Below, one piece after another: positions 1-2,608 of a stretch of DNA of 64,000 bases. Position numbers and translations under genes: made by a program. Positions within the stretch are counted from its first letter, which is position 1, and each line of letters opens with the position of its first letter. The stretch is from Adhaeribacter terrigena (GTDB taxonomy: Bacteria > Bacteroidota > Bacteroidia > Cytophagales > Hymenobacteraceae), in contig NZ_JAEHFX010000002.1 in NCBI RefSeq assembly GCF_016623615.1, positions 62,001-126,000 on the forward strand, read 5' to 3'. The notes under the pieces are model-generated. The model was not told the origin of the DNA. It saw nothing but the letters and a program-made list of their open reading frames with translations, and did no database searches.

Positions 1-113
1 CTACAAATATACGATTTTTCCGGCAGAATATTTTATGGCCGCTTTGTTAATTGGTTTACGTTACAAAGGTAGTTTCGGGTGAAAGAGATACGTTACAGAT
101 TTCGCAGTTTGTT

Positions 114-773
114 TTACAGAATTTCCTTTATCCGGATTCTTCCTAGGTTCAGGCTTATTGTAAAACCGCCATTCGATATCTTTGGTACAAAATGGTAGTA
201 ACCGCCTAAAGTTAGTCCGGCAAAACGCAAAGGTAAAAACATAGCTTCTGCCTGAAGGATAATGCCGGGTTTGTGATGAGTTTTAACCTCATAACCGAGA
301 ACCTGATAAGTTCCGAAGAAACCAAAGTCTGCGGTTCGCTGGTGAACGGAAATTGGTTCTTCATATTTAGTATAACTTAAACCGGCAAAGGCCTGAAACT
401 GCAAAAATTTATCAAATTGTTTACGTTTCCCTGCGGTTAAAAAATATGATCCAATAAAATGCTCCGGCACCATATTGATCCGGTGGTTATCTTCTTTCCA
501 TTTTTGCGAAGCGGGCTGTGTATCGGCGAAAGAGCTACTAAATAATCCGCCCCGGACCAATTTGTTTTTAGGTAATGCGGCTGTAAGATGTAACGAAGCA
601 TTTGCTCCTGTTGAAGCCATGTTGGTGCTATTTATAAAAGAGCCTCCAACACCTAAACTCAAATACAACTGCTGCAGTTTTCGCTCCTGCTTCATTACCG
701 TTTCAGTTTGGGATTTCGCCGAAAAGCTTAGCAGCGAAAGTAAAAGCAGGGCAAGCGGACGCAGTATTCTCAT
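114..773 (-). CDS. Putative outer-membrane beta-barrel protein
   Basis: A 219-residue protein with an N-terminal signal peptide (hydrophobic residues 5-18, cleavage likely near SAKSQ). The mature part alternates glycine and aromatic residues (YLSLGVGGSF, LTLGGYYHF, FTISLNLG), as in small Bacteroidota outer-membrane barrels. It is transcribed away from the dcw cluster. An opposed array of MraZ-type boxes (866-913) lies 93-140 bases ahead of its ATG, so shared control is possible but unproven. No specific family was recognised. Confidence 0.6.
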   Translation of the reverse strand: MRILRPLALLLLSLLSFSAKSQTETVMKQERKLQQLYLSLGVGGSFINSTNMASTGANASLHLTAALPKNKLVRGGLFSSSFADTQPASQKWKEDNHRINMVPEHFIGSYFLTAGKRKQFDKFLQFQAFAGLSYTKYEEPISVHQRTADFGFFGTYQVLGYEVKTHHKPGIILQAEAMFLPLRFAGLTLGGYYHFVPKISNGGFTISLNLGRIRIKEIL

Positions 774-865
774 AGCCTGACATTTTTATTACAGAAGCAG
801 CTAATTTAATATTTGTTATTGAAAGCGCTACTATTTTTTTTGCTTTTGTTACAAATCGCTGCTTT

Positions 866-913
866 CCCCACTTTTCCCCACCGCCGGATTTTTCCTCCAC
901 TTTACCCCACTTT
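866..913 (-). promoter_or_regulatory. MraZ-type box array on the minus strand
   Basis: Read on the minus strand, AAAGTGGGG (905-913), AAAGTGGAG (895-903), GCGGTGGGG (about 876-884) and AAAGTGGGG (866-874) line up with spacings of about 10, 19 and 10 bases. MraZ is known to bind direct GTGG/AAAGTG-type boxes every 10 bases at the head of dcw operons. This array faces away from mraZ, toward the gene at 114-773. Confidence 0.5.
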
Positions 914-981
914 TTAAGTCGTTTTTGATAGTGTTTTGTCATTTTATTTGCTAATATATTGAAAAACAAATAGTTGTAAAT

Positions 982-1010
982 AAAACGCTATGCTTTTTAG
1001 CGATAAAACT
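982..1010 (+). repeat. Dispersed 29-nt motif, copy
   Basis: Core AAAACGCTATGCTTTT at 982-997, with a tail ending in AAAACT. It lies between the two MraZ-type arrays. Confidence 0.6.
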
Positions 1011-1053
1011 AAAAGAGTTTGCTTCCGGATTTTAAAAACCTAACCTCTGTAAA

Positions 1054-1100
1054 TGTGGATAACGTGGATAAGTGGGGTGGATAACCATAATTTATCCACA
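1054..1100. promoter_or_regulatory. Cluster of four DnaA-box-like 9-mers
   Basis: TGTGGATAA (1054-1062), CGTGGATAA (1063-1071) and GGTGGATAA (1076-1084) are reverse-strand DnaA boxes. TTATCCACA (1092-1100) is an exact forward box. The first two abut. The same GTGG elements could instead be degenerate MraZ sites, so factor identity is inference. DnaA control of division genes is known in other bacteria. Confidence 0.45.
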
Positions 1101-1126
1101 AAGTGGTAAAAAGTGGGGAAAAGTGA
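1100..1126 (+). promoter_or_regulatory. MraZ operator: three 10-base direct repeats
   Basis: AAAGTGGTAA, AAAGTGGGGA and AAAGTGATGC follow one another with an exact 10-base period. This matches the known MraZ site (AAAGTGK plus three bases, repeated). It lies just upstream of the mraZ -7 box, as expected for autoregulation of the dcw operon. Confidence 0.75.
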
Positions 1127-1148
1127 TGCTTCGTTTTTAGCGATTGTG

Positions 1149-1156
1149 TACTTTTG
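1149..1156 (+). promoter_or_regulatory. mraZ promoter -7 box
   Basis: TACTTTTG is a full match to the Bacteroidota -7 consensus TAnnTTTG. It lies 40 bases ahead of the mraZ ATG and just downstream of the MraZ boxes. No convincing -33 element was seen. Confidence 0.55.
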
Positions 1157-1196
1157 TTTACCTCTTAAACTAAGGGGTGAAGTGTGTAGTTACTGT

Positions 1197-1667
1197 ATGA
1201 ATTTTTTATCCGGCGAATACGAGTGCAAGCTTGACCCTAAGGGCCGGTTGGTTTTACCTGCGAAGATAAAAGCTAACCTGCCGGAGGCGTCGGGTAACCA
1301 GGTGGTGCTGACCCGCGGGTTTGAGCCATGCCTGGTACTGTACCCGAAGCAGGAATGGAAAACCATTTACGACCGGGTAGCCGCTTTAAACGAATTCAAC
1401 GAAGAGTACCGCCAATTTCAGCGGAATTTCTTTCGGGGCAATACCGAACTCGAGCTCGATAATACCGGTCGATTTGTTTTGCCACGTACCATGCAGCGCT
1501 ACGCCGACATAGAAAAAGAAGTAATTATTGTGGGTTTAGGCAACCGCGTGGAGATCTGGAACCCGGAGAAATACGAGGACTTTTTAATTAAAGACCAGCA
1601 GCAGTTCTCCAACCTGGCCCAGAAATTCCTCGGCGACCAGCCGGCCCCGCAACAACCTGTTATATAA
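1197..1667 (+). CDS. mraZ: Transcriptional regulator MraZ
   Basis: A 156-residue dcw regulator with two SpoVT/AbrB-like swapped-hairpin domains, marked by DPKGRLVLPAKIK near the N terminus and DNTGRFVLPRTM in the second half. I start it at the ATG that gives MNFLSGEYECKLD. A longer frame from 1113 would run back through the operator and promoter. It is two bases from rsmH and first in the operon. In other bacteria MraZ represses its own operon through boxes like those at 1100-1126. Confidence 0.93.
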   Translation: MNFLSGEYECKLDPKGRLVLPAKIKANLPEASGNQVVLTRGFEPCLVLYPKQEWKTIYDRVAALNEFNEEYRQFQRNFFRGNTELELDNTGRFVLPRTMQRYADIEKEVIIVGLGNRVEIWNPEKYEDFLIKDQQQFSNLAQKFLGDQPAPQQPVI

Positions 1668-1669
1668 GT

Positions 1670-2608
1670 ATGGCTTACCACAATCCTGTTATGCTCAGCG
1701 AGTCGGTGGAAGCCCTCGCTATTCACCCCGCCGGCATTTATGTAGACGTAACGTTTGGCGGCGGCGGGCATTCGGCCGAAATTCTGAAACACCTGGAAAC
1801 CGGTAAACTCTACAGTTTCGACCAGGATTCGGATGCCGAAGCGCAAAGCGAAAAACTGGAAGGTCCGAATTTTCAGTTCGTGAAAGCCAACTTCCGCCAC
1901 TTAAAGAAATTTTTGCGGCTTTACGGCGTGAAACAAGTGGACGGGATTCTGGCGGATCTCGGCGTTTCTTCGCACCAGTTCAACACCGCCGAAAGGGGTT
2001 TTTCTACCCGTTTCGAAGGCCCGCTGGATATGCGCATGGATACCGACGCGCCGCTTTCTGCTAAGGAAATTATTGCTACCTATTCCGAAGAGCAGCTGCA
2101 CAAAATTTTTGGCATGTACGGCGAAGTGAAAAACGCCAAAACCTTAGCCCAGAATATTGTAGCCGCCCGCAACGGTCAGGAAATAAATACCATTGCCGAA
2201 TTTAAAAAAGCCATTGCCGGCTGCACGCCCAAAGGCAAAGAAAATAAATACCTGGCCCAGGTTTTTCAGGCGCTCAGAATAGAAGCCAACGACGAAATGA
2301 AAGCCCTGGAAGAAATGCTGCTGCAGGCTGCCGAAGTATTAAAACCGGGCGGACGTTTGGTAGTGATCTCCTATCATTCGCTGGAAGACCGCCTGGTGAA
2401 GAACTTTATTCAGAAAGGCAAATTTCACGGCGACGTGGAGAAAGACTTTTTTGGCAACGAAATAAAACCGCTGGAAGCCGTGGTGCGCAAAGCCTTAACG
2501 CCCAGTGCCGAAGAGCTGCTGGAAAACAACCGTTCGCGCAGCGCCAAACTCCGGATTGCCACTAAAACCGGCGAGCTGAAATTTGACGAGAAAAGCAAAA
2601 AACGCTAG
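1670..2608 (+). CDS. rsmH: 16S rRNA (cytosine1402-N4)-methyltransferase RsmH
   Basis: A 312-residue SAM-dependent enzyme that N4-methylates C1402 of 16S rRNA in the ribosomal P site. It has the glycine-rich SAM loop VDVTFGGGGHS near residues 26-36, the motif ILADLGVSSHQF, and the C-terminal VISYHSLEDRLVK block. Length is typical. Its stop codon (TAG, 2606-2608) lies inside the core of a dispersed-motif copy, so the last residues (KSKKR) are partly encoded by the repeat. Confidence 0.95.
   Translation: MAYHNPVMLSESVEALAIHPAGIYVDVTFGGGGHSAEILKHLETGKLYSFDQDSDAEAQSEKLEGPNFQFVKANFRHLKKFLRLYGVKQVDGILADLGVSSHQFNTAERGFSTRFEGPLDMRMDTDAPLSAKEIIATYSEEQLHKIFGMYGEVKNAKTLAQNIVAARNGQEINTIAEFKKAIAGCTPKGKENKYLAQVFQALRIEANDEMKALEEMLLQAAEVLKPGGRLVVISYHSLEDRLVKNFIQKGKFHGDVEKDFFGNEIKPLEAVVRKALTPSAEELLENNRSRSAKLRIATKTGELKFDEKSKKR

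Follow-up and report, generated by a model that had tools for sequence, protein, structure and literature searches.

A putative two-part MraZ operator around a DnaA-box module at the head of the dcw cluster in Adhaeribacter terrigena and its relatives

RESULTS

Two opposed arrays of MraZ-type boxes lie upstream of mraZ

Upstream of mraZ in Adhaeribacter terrigena two arrays of MraZ-type boxes point away from each other on either side of a compact block of DnaA boxes, and comparison with relatives makes it probable, in our judgement, that the arrays form a two-part MraZ operator which surrounds the DnaA-box module and controls the dcw cluster. The window analysed here is a stretch of 64,000 nucleotides from this 4.43 Mb Hymenobacteraceae genome (contig NZ_JAEHFX010000002.1, positions 62,001 to 126,000), and all coordinates are given as positions in the window. 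The mraZ gene (1197..1667, plus strand) is the first gene of the dcw cluster and is followed by rsmH and the remainder of the cluster. Its product matches the Pfam MraZ profile (PF02381, E-value 1.7e-32) and exceeds the cut-off of the NCBIfam profile TIGR00242, both DXXXR motifs are readable in its translation, and among named species the MraZ of Adhaeribacter soli is the nearest to it (92% identity). The mraZ promoter carries a -7 element, TACTTTTG (Bacteroidota TANNTTTG), at 1149..1156 on the plus strand, which is kept in relatives, and an Rfam search of window positions 1-2000 gave no RNA element match.

The proximal array consists of three plus-strand boxes with a 10-bp spacing that sit just upstream of and at the -33 position of this promoter. 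Boxes 1 and 2 (1100..1106 and 1110..1116) both read AAAGTGG and are exactly 10 bases apart. The exact spacing reported for this array by the first-pass annotation holds, and its AAAGTGG reading does not extend to box 3 (1120..1126), which is a degenerate AAAGTGA that coincides with or adjoins the -33 position and reads ATTGTGG in most relatives. The distal array consists of three AAAGTGG boxes on the minus strand. Box 1 (907..913) is 187 bp from the plus-strand array, with a counterpart in A. soli at 188 bp; box 2 (897..903) is 10 from box 1 and 197 bp from the plus-strand array, the commonest conserved distal box position among relatives; and box 3 (868..874) is 226 bp from the plus-strand array, a position common to many relatives, and starts 29 beyond box 2, which places it off the 10-base register by one base.

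Single AAAGTGG boxes occur in the window at chance level (11 observed versus 11.5 expected). The doublet AAAGTGGN3AAAGTGG has 2 matches in 4.43 Mb, compared with a genome-wide expectation of ~0.04 and 0 matches for the reversed control, and both are at the mraZ locus, on opposite strands and 187 bp apart. Together with the box coordinates this bears out the earlier claim of two MraZ-type arrays that point apart. The rest of the genome holds no further array at 0-1 mismatch, and with up to 2 mismatches the doublet found fewer matches there than the reversed control. Tandem AAAGTG(G/T)N3 repeats with a 10-bp period upstream of mraZ are the arrangement by which an MraZ operator is recognized, and this arrangement is present here.

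The distal array is conserved in position and orientation

The first-pass annotation had made its reading of the second array depend on conservation in relatives, and in this respect it stands, as every Adhaeribacter, Pontibacter and Rufibacter relative that was examined has the opposed distal array, with 2-5 boxes about 190-230 bp upstream of the plus-strand array. Across 204 genomes of the family, a doublet pair (one plus, one minus, ~200 bp apart) is typical of Pontibacter, Adhaeribacter and several Rufibacter. The same search found no such pair in Hymenobacter, where neither the distal array nor the DnaA-box module was found, which means that MraZ control does not depend on the system. At 52 loci, all anchored on the plus-strand array, the 90 bp at 180-270 upstream of that array contain 130 minus-strand and 0 plus-strand boxes (1.3 in shuffles). 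The distal boxes form a ladder at 187, 197, 207, 216, 226, 237, 247, 256 and 268 bp from the plus-strand array, and with their distances of 187, 197 and 226 bp the boxes of this genome stand on the relatives' ladder of ~10-bp steps.

The array pair conserves its length, its orientation and its boxes while the sequence between the arrays does not persist. Between genera the ungapped identity of the inter-array DNA is 0.32 (random 0.30), and that of the DnaA-box module and the plus-strand array is 0.93 and 0.87, respectively. A spacing that is kept despite divergence between the two sites is one feature expected of a looping operator pair, and it is present here. The distance to the first conserved distal box is not universal, being 194-206 bp in most Hymenobacteraceae and 146-184 bp in another family.

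The distal array also faces a divergent envelope operon in relatives

The ancestral divergent neighbour in relatives is a gene for an HYC_CC_PP protein followed by a TonB-dependent receptor. Its promoter, TATNTTTG, is conserved, and the start codon lies mostly ~4 nt beyond the -7 element, so that the transcript is probably leaderless, which suggests leaderless transcripts for the HYC_CC_PP operon in relatives generally. In relatives the distal array extends into the -33 region of this promoter. At each of the 36 loci where the ancestral divergent operon persists, an MraZ-type box or its GTGG core ends 10-13 bp upstream of the HYC -7 element; the box is complete in 32 of them and a degenerate GTGG core, read from the printed sequences, in L073, L076, L078 and L102. 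This constant geometry is strong evidence that the distal array also controls the HYC_CC_PP/TonB-receptor operon in relatives, and the operon is a candidate MraZ target outside dcw.

In A. terrigena the HYC_CC_PP gene (L005:1579-2011; 47 bits versus a cut-off of 28 for NCBIfam NF047658) has been displaced. Its promoter has the layout TATATTTG-N5-ATG, with the -7 element TATATTTG at 4..11 on the minus strand; the start codon follows after 5 nt and lies just beyond the window edge, and no MraZ box was found beside the -7 element. Between this promoter and the distal array lies a gene at 114..773 on the minus strand, which encodes a lineage-specific, secreted or outer-membrane-like protein of 219 aa. 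The protein has no Pfam or NCBIfam match and two relatives, which were found in A. soli alone, some 5 kb upstream of mraZ in that species, and no TANNTTTG promoter facing the gene was seen. The gene is a newcomer that has come between the array and the ancestral divergent promoter, which makes the locus a natural experiment, and the distal array of the window is still at the kept distance from the plus-strand array. The gene at 114-773 was considered as a conserved MraZ target and rejected, as it is confined to this lineage. The first-pass proposal that MraZ may control an envelope protein as well as the dcw operon finds support for the HYC_CC_PP/TonB-receptor operon of relatives and not for the gene at 114-773 that it had named. 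Its alternative, a putative bridging of both arrays, also draws some support from relatives, in which the arrays keep their spacing across near-random DNA and the distal array persists where no divergent gene faces it.

The 36 of 36 geometry would also be explained if the distal array were the operator of the divergent operon alone, with no role at mraZ, and a relic wherever the operon has been displaced. However, the array is retained at 17 of 53 loci (window included) that have no adjacent divergent HYC promoter, and the adjacency of this promoter has changed at least 7-10 times on the tree (counted as label changes over the 53 loci). In pairs of loci without the HYC promoter the boxes are conserved far above the flanking DNA, with 83-100% identity versus 40-74% for the inter-array DNA. 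The inner distal boxes moreover hold register with the plus-strand array and not with the HYC promoter, and in L255, a locus of the other family, the gene upstream of an opposed array is on the plus strand. A role in the divergent operon alone thus strikes us as unlikely. As the array persists at the 17 loci without an HYC promoter, its most likely role is in the control of mraZ/dcw, to which control of the divergent operon is added in relatives; the kept inter-array spacing and the occurrence of the array without a divergent gene fit joint control of mraZ. In this genome, where the divergent target has been cut off by the insertion, it is likely that the mraZ-directed role alone remains.

An invariant DnaA-box module abuts the proximal array

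A 47-bp block of DnaA boxes at 1054-1100, absent from the first-pass annotation, is the most striking part of the locus. It contains two perfect and two one-mismatch boxes and abuts the plus-strand array. The conserved module begins with a perfect TTATCCACA at 1054..1062 on the minus strand, followed on the same strand by TTATCCACG at 1063..1071, which is a perfect TTATCCACA in most Pontibacter, and by TTATCCACC at 1076..1084, mostly GTGGATAACC in relatives. It ends with a perfect TTATCCACA at 1092..1100 on the plus strand, whose last base, 1100, is also the first base of MraZ box 1. We assume that TTATCCACA is the DnaA box of this clade, and the DnaA of this genome has the usual box-recognition signature IGYHFGGRDHSTVIHS.

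Of the 204 family genomes, 72 have the inverted pair TGTGGATAA-N29-TTATCCACA, each in a single copy and always with a length of 47 bp, though spacers of 22-36 were allowed in the search; a search for the direct-orientation pair found none. In the genomes common to both searches the module adjoins the AAAGTGG doublet. Beyond this family, 8 genomes from a second family of the order, whose MraZ identity is ~55-68%, likewise carry the composite TTATCCACAAAGTGG at mraZ, and 4 of these 8 also have an opposed array. Composite matches away from mraZ (11 of 19 loci fetched) consist of a single 15-mer with no mraZ nearby and were taken as chance.

Two further sequence features were noted around the module. 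Loci L072-L122 have a semi-conserved block, TTATACCCAAAA / TTATCC(C)AAAGTGG, ~55-75 bp upstream of the plus-strand array, which resembles a degenerate second composite of a DnaA box and an MraZ box and is preceded by a conserved TCGTATATTA block. In four genomes of another family (L248-L251) the place of an opposed MraZ array is taken by additional TGTGGATAA boxes, one or two per genome, which lie ~177 and 206 bp from the plus-strand array on its upstream side.

The module packs four DnaA boxes into 47 bp, more tightly than any other TTATCCACA cluster in the 1.4 Mb that was sampled, and with exactly one inverted pair per genome it could be taken for an origin of replication or for a DnaA reservoir of the datA/DARS type, of which the AAAGTGG arrays are part. 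GC skew was sampled in two complete relatives and in the contig of the window. In G021 the skew switches at ~3.07 Mb and mraZ is at 1.28 Mb; in G002 the switch is at ~2.78 Mb and mraZ at 4.43 Mb. The switch is far from mraZ in both genomes, and along the contig of the window the skew does not change at the mraZ locus, so the locus is not oriC; an oriC at mraZ was rejected, as the locus is not at the GC-skew minimum. The boxes furthermore have a promoter and a known MraZ motif as direct neighbours, and we give this explanation little credence. A datA-like titration role may nonetheless belong to the module. No dense TTATCCACA cluster was found near the skew-inferred origins in the stretches read from G002 and G021, which weighs against the assumption that TTATCCACA is the DnaA box of this clade, and dnaA in both genomes is distant from mraZ and from the GC-skew minimum.

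That the repeats are bound by a regulator other than MraZ, for which it may be said that our literature search found no MraZ binding experiment in Bacteroidota, is improbable, given a motif and 10-bp period identical to those of the Mollicutes MraZ site. Several families of the order have the array at mraZ, and of 6 relatives without detectable mraZ only one has a stray doublet.

DISCUSSION

A model for the composite operator

In the two-part operator that we favour, MraZ oligomers would bind both arrays. The proximal array would repress mraZ and dcw by placing MraZ over the promoter; box 3, on or beside the -33 position, is where a repressor site would typically be expected. The distal array would raise local MraZ occupancy, probably through one oligomer, or two interacting ones, that bridge the arrays, and it would also repress the HYC promoter wherever that promoter has stayed adjacent. 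An MraZ octamer is mentioned in PMC5282649 and solved MraZ structures exist. The MraZ proteins known so far form ring oligomers, which makes it plausible, by analogy, that MraZ bridges the two arrays.

Since the DnaA site at 1092-1100 and the MraZ box at 1100-1106 have a base in common, competition between the two proteins would be expected. DnaA positioned between the arrays would compete with MraZ at this base and within the putative loop, so that its availability would match dcw expression to the initiation of replication. The combination of DnaA boxes with opposed MraZ arrays, kept in many related species, suggests that this locus may link cell division to DNA replication. The full scheme, in which DnaA and MraZ compete on a composite operator within an MraZ-bridged loop and replication initiation directly sets the transcription of all dcw genes in a large Bacteroidota group, is put forward tentatively and as a clearly less secure proposal than the two-part operator itself.

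What evolution has kept here is a compact, once-per-genome region that physically interlocks DnaA boxes with two MraZ arrays, and it bears on why MraZ is so widely conserved and on how division-gene expression is tied to replication. If the scheme is true, the composite operator would be a dedicated switch that couples replication and division. The link is testable by a few base changes, and Adhaeribacter, Pontibacter and Rufibacter species are culturable. Our search of open-licence papers returned no report of DnaA boxes at mraZ or of a fused DnaA/MraZ operator, and nothing relevant on MraZ in Bacteroidota or on MraZ looping.

Comparison with known systems

The MraZ site of Mollicutes is described as (AAAGTGKN3)n (Fisunov et al. 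2016, cited in PMC5282649; PMC8475190), and in M. genitalium this motif is found solely at the mraZ promoter, where MraZ is a repressor (PMC8475190). The locus described here is like the Mollicutes operator in having the same box with the same 10-bp period, upstream of mraZ and at a sole genomic location. In Mollicutes, however, a single array serves MraZ repression of its own cluster, whereas here a second, opposed array lies ~190 bp upstream with a DnaA module in between, and relatives of this genome have a second promoter at the distal array. The MraZ boxes of E. coli are TGGGN repeats with a 10-bp period. They resemble the present arrays in their direct repeats, in mraZ autorepression and in dcw control, and differ from them in box sequence; no opposed array is known to have been described there.

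Looping repressors with an auxiliary operator are exemplified by lac, gal and lambda CI. As in these systems, there is a main operator at the promoter and a distal operator at a conserved spacing, with an oligomeric repressor; the loop proposed here is putative, and the papers searched contain no report of looping by MraZ. DnaA sites at division genes occur at B. subtilis ftsL, C. crescentus ftsZ and E. coli ftsQA, as reviewed in PMC10532879, which regards it as an open question what DnaA boxes do in the dcw region of E. coli. The module is like these sites in placing DnaA boxes by cell-division genes with a suspected link between replication and division, and unlike them in being an invariant 47-bp block that is fused to an MraZ operator and stands at the head of the whole cluster.
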